A DNA stretch of 33,699 bases, taken from Pyrinomonadaceae bacterium (GTDB taxonomy: Bacteria > Acidobacteriota > Blastocatellia > Pyrinomonadales > Pyrinomonadaceae). Positions 21,377 to 27,025 of this stretch are shown piece after piece. The notes under the pieces are model-generated. The model saw only the letters and a list, made by a program, of their open reading frames with translations. It was not told the DNA's origin and ran no database searches. The number at the start of each line of letters is the position of its first letter. Within the stretch, counting starts at the first letter, position 1. The stretch spans positions 1-33,699 of the forward strand of contig JAICGZ010000027.1 in NCBI GenBank assembly GCA_025922875.1. The letters are read 5' to 3'. Position numbers and translations under genes: made by a program.

Positions 21377-21417
21377 AACACGGATGAAAACAGATCAATC
21401 TGTCTTCATCCGAGTTT
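21377..21417. repeat. Inverted repeat of the ACACGGAT family between convergent genes
   Basis: Arms AACACGGATGAAAACAGAT (21377-21395) and ATCTGTCTTCATCCGAGTTT (21398-21417) pair over about 18 positions with a two-base loop. The right arm overlaps the end of the convergent permease gene (stop at 21406-21408). It may terminate transcription in both directions. Confidence 0.8.
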
Positions 21418-21882
21418 ATCCGCGAGCTTCTTTTTGTATTTATAGCCGTGACGCGTTGCCGCTTCCTCGATAGAGTGCGTCGCGGTAAGAACATCATCTT
21501 CTTTCGCGAGGTCAATCAACCGCTTGTAATACGCACGCAGTGCATTGATCTCCGGTTCGCTCAAATCCTCGACGTCGATCAAGCGATTACTCGCGCCCTC
21601 CATTGCCGCCACGATCTCGTTCAGTTTGAGATGTATCGCGAGGGCGTCTTTGTTCTGCGCGCGTTGAATTAAGAACACCATCAGGAATGTGACGATGGTA
21701 GTGCCGGTATTGATCACCAGTTGCCAGGTGTCAGAAAAATTAAAGAGCGGTCCAGTAACGGCCCAAATAAAGATGGCTGCCAGGGCCAAAACAAAAGCGA
21801 GGGATGTGCCCGTGGCCCTGGTGGCCTGATAAGAAAGCCTCTCGAGCAGATAACCCATTAGATTTCTTCTTTTTCGCCGCAT
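21406..21882 (-). CDS. Low-affinity iron permease family protein
   Basis: A 158-residue membrane protein that fits the low-affinity iron permease family (PF04120). Two hydrophobic segments (about 25-47 and 57-78) include the family's characteristic FSDTWQLVINTGTTIVTFLM stretch, followed by IQRAQNKDALAIHLKLNEIV and a C-terminal helix. Function in bacteria is poorly established; iron transport is inferred from a distant yeast relation. ATG at 21882 has AAGAGG seven bases upstream; a TTG at 21885 is less likely. It begins four bases after the BMC-H stop and is therefore probably the last gene of the microcompartment operon, although the functional link is unknown. Confidence 0.85.
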   Translation of the reverse strand: MRRKRRNLMGYLLERLSYQATRATGTSLAFVLALAAIFIWAVTGPLFNFSDTWQLVINTGTTIVTFLMVFLIQRAQNKDALAIHLKLNEIVAAMEGASNRLIDVEDLSEPEINALRAYYKRLIDLAKEDDVLTATHSIEEAATRHGYKYKKKLADKLG

Positions 21883-21885
21883 CAA

Positions 21886-22212
21886 TCAACCTCTTGATCT
21901 AACAGAACCACTGATCTTCTTGCGCGTCGTTTCGCCAGTATGCAAAACGGGCAAACCAAGATCCACATCTGAATGGGGCTGAGGGATCACATGCGTGGCG
22001 ACGACCTCGCCGACTCGCTTCCCGGCCGCAGCGCCGGCATCCACGGCGCTACGCACAGCGGCCACATCACCACGCACAATCGCGGTCACCAGGCCGGCAT
22101 CGATCTTTTCCCACCCGACGAGGCGGACATTCGCGGCTTTCACCATCGCGTCGGCAGCTTCAATCATCGCCACCAGGCCGCGACATTCGACCATTCCGAG
22201 TGCTTCCGGCAT
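21886..22212 (-). CDS. BMC-H hexameric microcompartment shell protein (2)
   Basis: A 108-residue BMC-domain protein (PF00936; PduA/EutM/CsoS1 class) that forms hexameric tiles of a microcompartment shell. The family hallmark runs from [20 protein letters not shown] through [20 protein letters not shown] to [20 protein letters not shown], ending with [13 protein letters not shown]. The region after GDV corresponds to the pore-lining and edge helices. Length is close to the usual 90-110. GGAGG lies eight bases before the ATG at 22212. It is the second BMC-H of the locus and differs from BMC-H 1 in the pore-side segment ([11 protein letters not shown] rather than [11 protein letters not shown]) and in lacking a long tail. 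Confidence 0.95.
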
Positions 22213-22275: not shown

Positions 22276-23637
22276 TCAATTTCGCAGGGAATGGATCGGC
22301 GCCGGTATTCTGCCGCCCCGGCGGATAAATACCGCGGGTGAAAAGGTGCTCACGGGCATGATCGGCGCACTCCCTAACAATCCACCATACTCGACCATCT
22401 CGCCGACATCGCGCCCGGGCACTGGAATGATTCGCACTGCCGTGGTCTTGTTGTTCATAACCCCGACAGCCATCTCGTCGGCGATTATCGCGGCGATAGT
22501 TTCAGCAGAAGTCGAACCAGGAACAGCAACCATATCGATGCCCACCGAACAGACACTGGTCCATGCTTCGAGTTTCGCGAGCGACAATGCGCCCATTTGC
22601 GTGGCCTCGATCATGCCGGCATCCTCCGATACCGGAATGAAGGCTCCACTCATACCGCCAACGGAGCCGCTGGCCATCGCGCCACCCTTCTTGACAGCAT
22701 CAGTCAGCATTGCGAGCGCCGCGGTTGTTCCGTGAGTGCCCGCACGCTCGAAGCCCATCGCCTCGATGATGTTCGCAACCGAGTCGCCGATAACGGGAGT
22801 CGGCGCCAGCGACAGATCGATGATACCGAACGGAATACCTAATCGTCGTGCTGCTTCCCGGCCGACCAGCTCACCCGCACGCGCCAGTTTGAACGAAAGC
22901 TTCTTTATCGTTTCGGCCAGGTCCTGCAAGGGAAGATTTCGATCGGCATGCCTGACCGCGTGATGGACCACGCCCGGCCCCGAGACGCCAATGTTGATTA
23001 CAGCTTCAGCTTCGCTCACACCGTGAAACGCGCCGGCCATAAATGGATTGTCTTCGACCGCATTCGCAAAGCAAACAAACTTCGCGCACGCCAACCCGCC
23101 CTGATCGCGAGTTCGCTCGGCCGCGTCCTTCACGATTCTGCCGACCTGGCCCACCACGTCCATGTTGATGCCGGCCCGAGTTGTTGCCGCGTTTATGGAG
23201 GAACACAAACGTCTGGTCGCCGCGAGAGCTTCGGGAATGGAATCGAGAAATTTAGTTTCGGAACGTGTGGTTCCTTTTTGGACGAGCGCGGAATATCCGC
23301 CAATGAAATCGACACCGACGGATCCCGCGGCATCGTCGATTGCTCGTGCGAGTTGGGTCAGATCGCCTCGCAGGCCTTCAGTGATCAGGGAAACGGGTGT
23401 TATCGAAATGCGTTTATTTGCGACCCTGATGCCAAACTCGTCGCCAATCTCGTCAACTGTCTGTACGAGTCGAGCAGCAACAGCGCGGATCTTGTCACCC
23501 GCCTTTTGCGCCACTCCGTCCATCGAGTCGCTGCTGCAATCGAGCAAGCTCAGACCGAGCGTAACCGTGCGTACGTCGAGATGCTCCATCTCAGTCATCG
23601 CGACGGTTTGAAGTATCTCGGCCTGGGTGTATTCCAT
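22276..23637 (-). CDS. UPF0210/DUF711 (PFL-like) family protein in BMC locus
   Basis: A 453-residue protein of the UPF0210/DUF711 family, normal in length for that family. Recognisable blocks are [20 protein letters not shown] at the start, [119 protein letters not shown] and the end [17 protein letters not shown]. Its biochemistry is unknown. From memory, the solved family structure was grouped with pyruvate formate-lyase-like folds, hence the database name PFL family. In Streptococcus and others its gene pairs with a UPF0237 ACT-domain gene, and the same partner is present here. No standard glycyl-radical motif was found. It starts at ATG 23637, abutting the stop of the zinc-ribbon gene. 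It is a candidate for the missing signature enzyme. Confidence 0.92.
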
Positions 23638-23952
23638 CTATCCGATCACTTTGCTGAGAATGAGTAGCACAAGAAATAGTAAAAAGAGCGCAGCAGCGAC
23701 GAGCAGGAAGCGCAAGCTCGGATCGTAGCCGGCTTGATCGATAACGACGCTGGAAAATTTCTGCAACTTCTCTACACGAGCTCGCACGCCGTCCTCAGAA
23801 GGTCGAGGAGTTGGTGGCCGCGGAACGGAGTCGAGCGCCTGGGTCGGAGCGGTATCGGCGATCGGATTACCACACTGTGGACAGAACATTGCGTGCTGGC
23901 GCACGGATACACCACAGGCGGTACAACGACGAGCTATTTCAGGTTCAGACAT
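23638..23952 (-). CDS. Small zinc-ribbon membrane protein in BMC operon
   Basis: A 104-residue protein. The N-terminus has a double zinc ribbon half-pair (CTACG at about 10-14 and CPQCG at about 24-28) that should bind one zinc. A Pro-rich linker (about 35-55) is followed by a basic helix and a single C-terminal membrane segment (about 83-102; LVAAALFLLFLVLLILSKVI). It is likely tail-anchored in the inner membrane with the zinc ribbon in the cytoplasm. Function unknown. AAGG lies five bases before the ATG. Its stop codon directly abuts the UPF0210 start, implying translational coupling. It could tether or regulate the compartment, but this is only inference. Confidence 0.8.
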   Translation of the reverse strand: MSEPEIARRCTACGVSVRQHAMFCPQCGNPIADTAPTQALDSVPRPPTPRPSEDGVRARVEKLQKFSSVVIDQAGYDPSLRFLLVAAALFLLFLVLLILSKVIG

Positions 23953-23999: not shown

Positions 24000-24443
24000 T
24001 TAGATCCGGTGCATCGCGTTGAAGAGATCCTCTCGCTGCGCGTAAATCCGTACCCCAAGCTTCTGCCCCTCGTTCTTCAATCTCTCCTTCAACTCGGCCG
24101 TGCTTTCACGCGCGCGCGACGTGTCCGCAATGATCACCATCGCGAATTTACCCTGGACGACTGTCTGGTTGATGTCGATGATGCTGCAACCCGCCTCCGC
24201 GAGGATTTGCGAAACGCCTGCAACGATACCCGGATGGTCCAATCCAAAGACTGAAATCACCATTCGGCCGGAGGAGCCTTCCGTCGAACTCAGTTGCACG
24301 GCGCTTCGATCTCCAGTCGCGGAAGAGCCAACCTGATTGTAAATATCGGTGACCAATTGCTCCACCGTCGAATCATCAACCGCACTCCCTAAGCGTTCGT
24401 AAACCGCTCGAGTGATTCGGTAGATCAAGTCTTCATTGGCCAT
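24000..24443 (-). CDS. ACT-domain protein (UPF0237-like) with encapsulation-peptide-like N-terminus
   Basis: A 147-residue protein. Residues about 61-147 are a UPF0237-type ACT domain: MVISVFGLDHPGIVAGVSQI with the ligand-loop DHPG, INQTVVQGKFAMVIIAD, and the family end EDLFNAMHRI. ACT domains usually bind small metabolites such as amino acids and regulate a partner. The usual UPF0237 protein is about 90 residues; this one has a 57-residue N-terminal addition with two amphipathic helices (about 4-18, EDLIYRITRAVYERL; about 26-38, TVEQLVTDIYNQV) joined to the ACT domain by a Ser/Thr/Gly linker. Such helices are typical of peptides that direct cargo into microcompartments. It precedes the zinc-ribbon and UPF0210 genes and follows the EutN gene. 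No clear Shine-Dalgarno is present. Confidence 0.9.
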   Translation of the reverse strand: MANEDLIYRITRAVYERLGSAVDDSTVEQLVTDIYNQVGSSATGDRSAVQLSSTEGSSGRMVISVFGLDHPGIVAGVSQILAEAGCSIIDINQTVVQGKFAMVIIADTSRARESTAELKERLKNEGQKLGVRIYAQREDLFNAMHRI

Positions 24444-24482: not shown

Positions 24483-24812
24483 TCACGGTCTGCCATTCTC
24501 GTGCACAAGCCTGCGCGCTGCTTCGCGCATCTCGTCGGACAGAGTTTCGTGGATATCGACACGATCGACGATACCCACGACCGCTGCTTCAATCGACATG
24601 TCCTGGTTGCCGATCGCGGATCGCGCTGCTTTGCCGAAGGCGCACAATACCATTTCGCCTGTCCCTGCACCCAATCGATCGGCAACCACAACGATGTTGC
24701 GCGTGGGTTCCTTGTCGAGATCGTAAGGATGAACAATCAAAAACCTGACGCCCTCGAGATCGGGCGTCTTCTTCGTCGACCAAACTGTGCCTACTACTTT
24801 TGCTAAGAACAT
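24483..24812 (-). CDS. EutN/CcmL-family pentameric microcompartment vertex protein (BMC-P)
   Basis: A 109-residue protein of the EutN/CcmL family (PF03319), which forms the pentameric caps at shell vertices. The family start is intact (MFLAKVVGTVWSTKKTPDLE), followed by RFLIVHPYD, then NIVVVADRLGAGTGEMVLCA (the conserved DxxGAGxGExVL core), SAIGNQDMSIEAAVVGIVD, and a C-terminal basic tail slightly longer than usual. Its ATG at 24812 lies seven bases beyond the aldehyde dehydrogenase stop at 24820, so the two are translationally linked; AAGG is twelve bases upstream. Presence of a vertex protein argues for a closed compartment rather than stray BMC-H sheets. Confidence 0.95.
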   Translation of the reverse strand: MFLAKVVGTVWSTKKTPDLEGVRFLIVHPYDLDKEPTRNIVVVADRLGAGTGEMVLCAFGKAARSAIGNQDMSIEAAVVGIVDRVDIHETLSDEMREAARRLVHENGRP

Positions 24813-24819
24813 CTACTCG

Positions 24820-26577
24820 TTAAACCTTCGCAAAGACTTCCGCGGGTTCGCCAATATCACGTGCGGCGGGCGTGATTATCGTCTTCCCATTGATGTAGAT
24901 CTTGTCACCCTTTTGTATCGCACGCCGCACGTCTTCTTCACTTACGAACTCGACCGCTTTCGACCCATTGGTTGCTGGAGGCGCCGGCTTGCTGACGGGC
25001 GACGGCGGCGCCGGTTGAGGCGGTGGCGCGGAGTACATGCTACCTGCCTCGGTCTCGATCACCGGCGGCGGCAGCGGCGAACCAGATGGCTCGAGACGCT
25101 TGTCCGCAAGAAAACGATCGACGATCGCTGCAATCTCCTGCCGATCGATCTTGCCACCAGCCACGACCGATTCCCTCGCTGCTACCGGTTGAGAAACTTG
25201 CTGAGTAGTAACTGCCGGGCGAGCGCTCTTGACTGGTCGAGTCTCAAACGCGACGCGCTTGATATCCATCAGGTGCAGTGGCGACACGTTGTCCGACGTG
25301 ACATTGCCGCCCCACGATCCGCAACCAAGCGTCATCGAAGGCGGCAACGCGGTCGAGAACCCAATCGCGCCGTGCGTCGTCGGCGTATTAACCGTAATGC
25401 GCGAAGCGGGCATCTCTGCGCCAAACTTCACTGCTGCTTCACGCGAGCGTGTGTGAATACCGGCCGTGTGGCCCATACCGCCGTAGCCAAGCACTTCCCT
25501 GCTCCGCTCGGCGCACGCAGCCAAACCATCAACGACGTAAAACGCCAGGATCGGCGACAACTTTTCCATGGACAACGGATGATCGCGCCCGACACCCGCC
25601 ACGTCCGCGATCAAACAACGCGTTCCAGGCGGCACGTTCAGGCCTGCCATCTTCGCGATCACTTCAACCGATTTCCCGACGATCGCTGGATTCAGTGAAC
25701 GCTGCGGTGTCGCCACGACCTTTCCGAGTTGATCCGCTTCGGCCGCCGAGAGGAAATGCGCGCCCTGAAGTTTGAACTGCTCGCGCACGGCCTGTTCGAT
25801 CGGCGCGTCACAAACCACTGCCTGCTCGGATGCGCAGATTGTGCCGTTGTCAAAACACTTCCCTGTCAAAATGTCCTGGACCGCCTTCGGCACGTCGGCA
25901 GTTCTCTCGACACAAACCGGTACATTACCTGGTCCAACTCCAAAGGCCGGCTTGCCTGACGAGTAAGCAGCACGCACGAGCCCGATTCCACCAGTCGCGA
26001 GAATCACGGCCGTCTGCTTGTGCTTCATCAGCGATTCAGTACCTTCGATCGTCGCCGTCGTCATGCAGCCGACCGCGTCCGCAGGCAATCCTTCTTTCAC
26101 ACCCGCTTCGCGCATGACGCGCGCCGTTTCGTTGATGCACTTGGCGGCCGATGGATGCGGCGACAGAACGACTGTGTTTCGCGACTTAATTGCGATCAGG
26201 ATCTTGAAAATTGCAGTTGAGGTCGGGTTAGTGGAAGGAATAATGCCAGCGACAACTCCGCGCGGGCTCGCAATCTCTACAACGTCTTTCGACTCAGAAA
26301 CAACTCCTTTGGTACGCAAGCCGCGAAAGTAGTTCCAAACATCTTCAGCAGCGAAGCGGTTCTTTTCCTGCTTGTCTGCGGGAATACCATATCCGGTTTC
26401 TTCAACAGCAATCGCGCCGAGGCGCGCCGCCTCACTCAGCGCCGCACGCGCCATCGCTTCGCAGATGCGATCGATCTTCGCCTGATCGAACTGGGCCACC
26501 TGGGCCTGCGCTCGATGCGCCGCCTCAACGAGGTCGCGCGCCTGTTGCACTGAAACTAGATCCTTATCGACAGACAT
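24820..26577 (-). CDS. CoA-acylating aldehyde dehydrogenase with internal encapsulation peptide and ITPAARD module
   Basis: A 585-residue enzyme of the CoA-acylating aldehyde dehydrogenase class (PduP/EutE/AdhE-like), oxidising an aldehyde to acyl-CoA with NAD+. The catalytic cysteine is C248 in [16 protein letters not shown]. The coenzyme region includes [14 protein letters not shown] and [15 protein letters not shown], and a [13 protein letters not shown] motif lies near 364-376. The catalytic body ends near 445. Beyond it come an amphipathic helix (about 476-495; [20 protein letters not shown]) like an encapsulation peptide, a Pro-rich linker (about 498-536), and a C-terminal module (541-585) with [14 protein letters not shown] and [13 protein letters not shown], a pattern also found in other microcompartment proteins such as the EutT N-terminus. 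ATG at 26577 has GGAG eight bases upstream. The substrate aldehyde is unknown. Confidence 0.95.
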
Positions 26578-26596
26578 GGCTAACTCCAAATCTTAG

Positions 26597-26623: not shown

Positions 26624-27025
26624 TTATCTCGCCCTCTCTTTATTACCCTCACGCGTTCCGGCACCGAGCGATCGTCCCTGATCGCCCTGACCCAACTGCC
26701 CTCGCGCGCCGCCTTGCAAAGCAGCCTCGTCCGGACTCAGACCGGTGCGTCCATCGACTGGAAGCACGCGCTCGACTTCGGCATGCGGTCTCGGAATAAC
26801 GTGGACGCTGATCAATTCGCCAACTCTTCGCGCCGCAGCCGCGCCTGCGTCGGTCGCCGCCTTAACCGCGCCAACGTCGCCGCGCACAAAGATCGTCACG
26901 TAGCCCGCACCGATGTACTCCTTCCCGAGTAGTTGTACATTCGCTGCTTTGACCATCGCATCGGCGGCCTCAACTGCACCCACGAATCCTTTTGTCTCAA
27001 CCATTCCGAGTGCTTCCAGGGGCAT
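26624..27025 (-). CDS. BMC-H hexameric microcompartment shell protein (1), with C-terminal tail
   Basis: A 133-residue BMC-domain protein. Residues 1-92 match the shell hexamer family ([20 protein letters not shown], then [40 protein letters not shown], and [11 protein letters not shown]). The last 40 or so residues form a Gly/Gln/Arg-rich tail beyond the usual end, probably disordered. AGGAC lies about seven bases before the ATG. It is the first gene of the BMC operon and is transcribed divergently from the rodZ-like/guaB pair. A weak -10-like TACAAT (complement at 27046-27051) precedes it without a good -35. Confidence 0.95.

Follow-up and report, generated by a model that had tools for sequence, protein, structure and literature searches.

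Why would an ACT-domain protein of the UPF0237 family, encoded among the shell genes of a bacterial microcompartment (BMC), carry a long N-terminal extension in front of its ACT domain, and could that extension attach the protein to the compartment? ACT domains are commonly regulatory. The question arises from a 33,699-nt stretch of DNA from a Pyrinomonadaceae bacterium (GCA_025922875.1, contig JAICGZ010000027.1, positions 1 to 33,699, forward strand), the whole of which is called the window below. On its minus strand, the genes of interest lie in the order BMC-H, CoA-acylating aldehyde dehydrogenase (AldDH), BMC-P, ACT protein, zinc-ribbon protein, UPF0210/DUF711 protein and BMC-H (Table 1).

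Table 1. Features of the window discussed in the text, with residue numbers referring to the encoded protein (EP, encapsulation peptide)
Feature	Position	Strand	Evidence
BMC-H shell protein	26624..27025	-	Profile matches
CoA-acylating AldDH of BMC (EutE-like)	24820..26589	-	Profile matches
EP-like helix in AldDH linker, residues 484-498	25096..25140	-	Pattern score only
BMC-P (EutN/CcmL) shell vertex protein	24483..24812	-	Profile matches
UPF0237 ACT-domain protein with N-terminal helical hairpin, 147 aa	24000..24443	-	ORF and profile matches
Extension helix 1, residues 2-18, ANEDLIYRITRAVYERL, EP-like	24390..24440	-	AlphaFold2, conservation, pattern score
Extension helix 2, residues 24-42, includes VEQLVTDIYNQV	24318..24374	-	AlphaFold2, conservation
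Variable disordered linker, residues 43-59	24267..24317	-	pLDDT <50 at residues 44-55; 26% identity
ACT domain, residues 60-147	24003..24266	-	NF001220, ACT_6; closest solved structure 1zpv (SP0238)
Zinc-ribbon protein with hydrophobic C-terminal helix, between ACT and UPF0210	23638..23952	-	ORF and domain search
UPF0210/DUF711 partner protein, 453 aa, without extension	22276..23637	-	Profile matches
Second BMC-H shell protein	21886..22212	-	Profile matches

Identity and anatomy of the extended protein

The ACT protein is a variant within the UPF0237 family and not a protein outside it. The NCBIfam model NF001220/PRK00194 (UPF0237; 90 positions, curated cut-off 74 bits) matches residues 60-147 with 98.7 bits over model positions 3-90, the Pfam ACT_6 match spans residues 61-133, and the nearest solved structure both by sequence and by fold (the top Foldseek match) is 1zpv, SP0238 of S. 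pneumoniae. Because the UPF0237 match begins only at residue 60, about 57-59 N-terminal residues are extra, in keeping with the 57 counted by the first-pass annotation. Ordinary UPF0237 proteins are about 89-100 aa long and consist of the ACT domain from the start, whereas the window protein adds a 59-residue hairpin and linker and is encoded in a BMC locus. A mis-called start was ruled out as the source of the extension, since an in-frame stop lies just 6 codons upstream of the ATG and both the start and the helices are conserved among homologues.

The first-pass annotation had also described the extra residues as two short amphipathic helices with a flexible linker and had called for structure prediction; AlphaFold2, run with 62 homologues, bore this description out. 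Two N-terminal helices (block pLDDT 77-88) are followed by the disordered linker and then by the ACT fold, most of which reaches a pLDDT of 93 or more. The overall pTM of 0.59 leaves the position of the hairpin relative to the ACT body uncertain, as would be expected if no rigid contact fixed the two parts; together with the low-confidence linker it suggests a free hairpin. The same layout was predicted for a distant orthologue from another class (L030), which is 30% identical to the window protein. Across 43 aligned homologues the extension is conserved and the linker is not. In 19 Pyrinomonadaceae proteins the helices (mean identity 79% for helix 1 and 65% for helix 2) are about as well conserved as the ACT domain (80%), in contrast to the linker (26%). 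Hydrophobic positions are kept in helix 1 (6, 7, 10, 13, 14 and 18) and in helix 2 (27, 30, 31, 34, 35 and 38), and polar positions of the hairpin mostly vary, with T11, E28 and D33 among those that are kept. For the helices, the linker and the ACT domain, median dN comes to 0.25, 1.05 and 0.15, respectively. These rates are rough, since dS is about 1.5 in all three parts and thus near saturation. As judged from the identities within the Pyrinomonadaceae, the hairpin helices are under purifying selection.

A satellite locus of an ACI-type microcompartment

The main text of Sutter et al. (2021; PMC8217296) describes the ACI-type BMC as restricted to Acidobacteria and as combining a class II aldolase that bears a C-terminal EP-like helix, a BMC-P triplet and an AldDH on a satellite locus. 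A hydroxyacid dehydrogenase (PF00389/PF02826) in the locus is a further mark of this type. The aldolase, the triplet and the satellite AldDH recur here. Contig C5 of the same genome encodes a Rex-like regulator, a class II aldolase with an EP-like end, a BMC-H protein and three BMC-P proteins. The aldolase gene (L031:8817-9581; PF00596, E = 1.6e-46; C-terminus KISLTREELVELLSQAVNGK) adjoins the BMC-H gene, and the BMC-P triplet (L031:9923-10735) consists of three EutN-like ORFs, one of which was checked against Pfam. The window is the AldDH satellite locus of an ACI-type BMC with its main locus on contig C5, because the AldDH lies in the window (contig C27) and the aldolase, BMC-H and BMC-P triplet lie on C5, as that main text would have it. 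Several proteins of unknown function are mentioned in the same main text, neither extended UPF0237 nor UPF0210 being among them. Six genomes from other Acidobacteriota families that encode extended UPF0237 also contain an ACI-like aldolase, BMC-P cluster or AldDH. Many Pyrinomonadaceae (G038, G105 and kin; loci L048 and L049) keep the satellite as BMC-H, AldDH, zinc ribbon and BMC-H, without ACT, UPF0210 and that locus's BMC-P, and the ACT/UPF0210 pair is therefore optional in the ACI BMC.

Several other features of the locus were recorded. The C-terminal tail of the AldDH (window 24823-24957, minus strand) is conserved in the AldDHs of the other ACI-like loci (L163, L166 and L168) and is not recognised by Pfam. 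Genes similar to the zinc-ribbon gene of the window occur at L048:9342-9716 and L049:8687-9091, in relatives from which ACT, UPF0210 and the satellite BMC-P have been lost. Directly after the last BMC-H gene lies a PF04120 'low affinity iron permease'-like gene (21406-21885, minus strand), and a similar ORF also follows the BMC-H gene in the related genome G075 (L032:15934-16404).

Distribution of the extension

Among the 396 Acidobacteriota genomes that make up the phylum sample, 173 contain BMC shell genes and 30 contain UPF0237, counted over the curated cut-off. UPF0237 was found in 28 of the 173 genomes with BMC genes compared to 2 of the 223 without (Fisher p = 4e-9, kinship ignored). By the first-pass annotation's own standard, its reading would fail if the same extension were common in genomes lacking BMC genes, and it had proposed a comparison with homologues outside BMC loci. 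The outcome favours the reading: all 28 extended proteins come from genomes with BMC genes, and the two remaining UPF0237 genomes (G316 and G340) have neither hairpin nor BMC genes. A scan of a genome collection gave a second sample of 80 UPF0237 loci. All 18 loci from Acidobacteria combine the extension with BMC genes, and the hairpin is absent from all 62 loci from outside the Acidobacteriota. The two Acidobacteriota samples overlap, with locus L100 and G219 representing one genome.

It is also important to note that 17 of the 62 non-Acidobacteriota genomes encode other BMC shell proteins. No shell genes were detected near their UPF0237 genes in flanks of up to 8 kb per side, with the window shell proteins as queries. 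Because the UPF0237 proteins of these 17 genomes are short, the extension is tied to the ACI-bearing clade and its BMC, not to BMCs generally.

Within the sample the hairpin was not found in any BMC-free lineage, the extensions of two Bacillota proteins being different and without resemblance to it. These two UPF0237 proteins (L063:8001-8381 and L072:1797-2165), whose genomes have no BMC shell genes, carry, ahead of their ACT match, an extension of about 54-60 residues that contains the motif AGSVVTRSAREL. This AGSVVTRSAREL-type extension shows weak similarity to the C-terminus of the Pfam PDU_like family (E = 0.0099), and visual comparison also suggests a likeness to the C-terminal tail of the window AldDH.

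Comparison with encapsulation peptides

The targeting tags of the Pdu BMC are recognised as N-terminal extensions that non-BMC homologues lack (PMC12108088). The window protein resembles the Pdu EPs (PduP 1-18, PduD 1-18 and PduL 1-20) in several respects, including an N-terminal amphipathic helix of close to the usual length of about 18-20 residues (residues 2-18), a flexible linker that is poorly conserved (26% identity vs 79% and 65% in the helices) and the absence of the extension from non-BMC homologues, here those of 2 BMC-free Acidobacteriota genomes and 62 non-Acidobacteriota loci. The hydrophobic moment of the first helix is 0.45, compared to 0.35 for PduP, 0.40 for PduL and 0.61 for PduD. 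Additionally, MANEDLIYRITRAVYERL aligns without gaps to PduP residues 1-18, MNTSELETLIRTILSEQL (PduP sequence from PMC5405515), and helix 1 keeps the hydrophobic register of the PduP, PduD and PduL tags (sequences from PMC5405515 and PMC7221423).

An EP-like score was built from the three Pdu tags, with 960 neighbouring N-termini as background. Helix 1 falls in the top 0.9% of these, though several unrelated DUF711 N-termini equal it, and shuffles of its own residues reach its score with p = 0.0006. Because those DUF711 N-termini score as high and the C-terminal EP-like helix of the ACI aldolase scores low, the score is only weak evidence. A profile of the extension run on 13 genomes recovered UPF0237 orthologues only, with the remaining matches at noise level; this speaks against a module common to other cargo in these genomes and also weighs against the EP reading. 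Against the PDB, the same profile gave chance matches only (best E = 0.066).

The extension also differs from the Pdu EPs. A classic tag has 18-20 residues, whereas the window protein has a conserved two-helix hairpin of about 42 residues, and the candidate cargo, for which targeting is putative, is an ACT-domain protein and not an enzyme. Since the hairpin is both longer and better conserved than the usual EP, a specific docking domain fits equally well as two tags. We consider it probable that the 59 extra residues serve as a module for docking to the BMC or for encapsulation, specific to the lineage of Acidobacteriota that bear ACI BMCs.

Signal-like helices are also present on the structural BMC proteins PduB and PduM (PMC12108088). 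The window protein is similar in that its N-terminal helices sit on a non-enzyme BMC protein, but PduB and PduM are structural proteins of the Pdu BMC and the carrier here is a widespread regulatory-type domain. This precedent, like the commonly regulatory nature of ACT domains, is in line with a reading in which the ACT protein attaches to the outside of the shell or controls the expression of BMC genes, the hairpin being a shell-surface or regulator-docking element and not an EP. Such a role is very improbable, given that the helix pattern resembles luminal cargo tags and that a domain search identified no DNA-binding domain in the ACT protein.

Origin and persistence of the hairpin

A phylogeny of 87 partner DUF711 proteins places those accompanying extended UPF0237 in one clade with 100/100 support, and the hairpin was therefore gained once. 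The partners of the two short forms (G316 and G340, loci L042 and L043; one genus, no BMC) nest among Bacillota, which suggests that this short UPF0237-UPF0210 pair was acquired laterally and separately. A single gain also means that the 28 of 28 association is close to one evolutionary event that was long kept, which weakens the statistics. The hairpin persists in five genomes where the UPF0237-UPF0210 pair lies apart from the shell genes, and two of these (G032 and G045) have ACI-like shell, aldolase or AldDH genes elsewhere in the genome.

The single origin is compatible with a role of the hairpin in homo-oligomerisation or structure, whereby it would join ACT dimers into larger assemblies through a four-helix bundle or cap the ACT domain, and its tie to the BMC would be inherited and not functional. 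The hairpin is indeed a conserved two-helix unit with polar positions partly kept, and the N-terminal extension of PduE offers a precedent, as a tag look-alike that is needed for the enzyme and not for targeting (PMC12108088). However, short UPF0237 proteins elsewhere manage without a hairpin, a disordered linker of variable length is ill-suited to rigid capping, and every extended form in the genomes sampled is accompanied by BMC genes. On balance, a purely structural role is rather unlikely, and docking to the BMC is preferred.

The UPF0210 partner

UPF0210/DUF711 was identified in all 30 Acidobacteriota genomes with UPF0237, the two genes being separate in five of them (G051, G219, G235, G267 and G346). 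Those Pyrinomonadaceae without UPF0237 that were tested are also without UPF0210. In genus g14 of family f3, three genomes have no BMC, no UPF0237 over the cut-off occurs in the sample, and DUF711 is absent from the one genome tested. The S. pneumoniae protein SP0238 and the window protein share both the ACT fold, over residues 60-147 of the latter, and a UPF0210/DUF711 partner, which in S. pneumoniae is SP0239, a solved member of the family (2ha9). DUF711 has been placed in a superfamily of ten-stranded barrels together with pyruvate formate-lyase and ribonucleotide reductase (PMC4390871). The UPF0210 protein of the window has no tag of its own, as model NF003700 covers residues 4-453 of 453. 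Co-recruitment of UPF0210 is possible, because UPF0237 and UPF0210 occur together in 30 of 30 genomes and UPF0210 is untagged.

The strict co-occurrence of the two families could also be read to mean that the hairpin serves to hold the ACT protein on a specific cytosolic partner outside the shell, either UPF0210 or the zinc-ribbon membrane protein, whose gene, encoding a hydrophobic C-terminus, sits between ACT and UPF0210 in the window. This is improbable, as Bacillota UPF0237 pairs with UPF0210 without any hairpin, and in the loci of f20, f10 and f36, which keep the hairpin, no zinc-ribbon gene was detected next to ACT.

Proposed role in the microcompartment

If the extension is a BMC docking or encapsulation module, the hydrophobic faces of the hairpin may, in the manner of an EP, hold the ACT protein at the enzyme core or the inner shell of the BMC, and the disordered linker would leave the ACT domain free to work. 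The ACT protein would then end up inside the BMC, the untagged UPF0210 might ride with it, and the pair could tune or serve the aldehyde pathway of the compartment. The more specific proposal, that the two-helix tag packages the ACT protein in the lumen of the ACI BMC and brings UPF0210 along as an internal ligand-responsive module, is tentative, being possible but less likely than docking as such. A role of the ACT protein as a 'metabolite sensor' is a guess from its fold.

EP tags and ACI BMCs are already known, but the literature searched yielded no ACT protein whose tag is restricted to BMCs; subscription papers and the BMC-catalogue supplement excepted, no paper was found that links UPF0237, UPF0210/DUF711 or ACT domains to microcompartments. 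ACI BMCs, which occur in abundant soil Acidobacteria, have a largely undefined cargo, and the metabolosome tags known so far belong to enzymes or structural proteins. If true, a BMC-specific tag on a domain of regulatory type would suggest small-molecule control inside or at the organelle. In addition, the locus places the widespread and uncharacterised UPF0237/UPF0210 pair in the context of aldehyde/aldolase metabolism, where its function can be studied by experiment.
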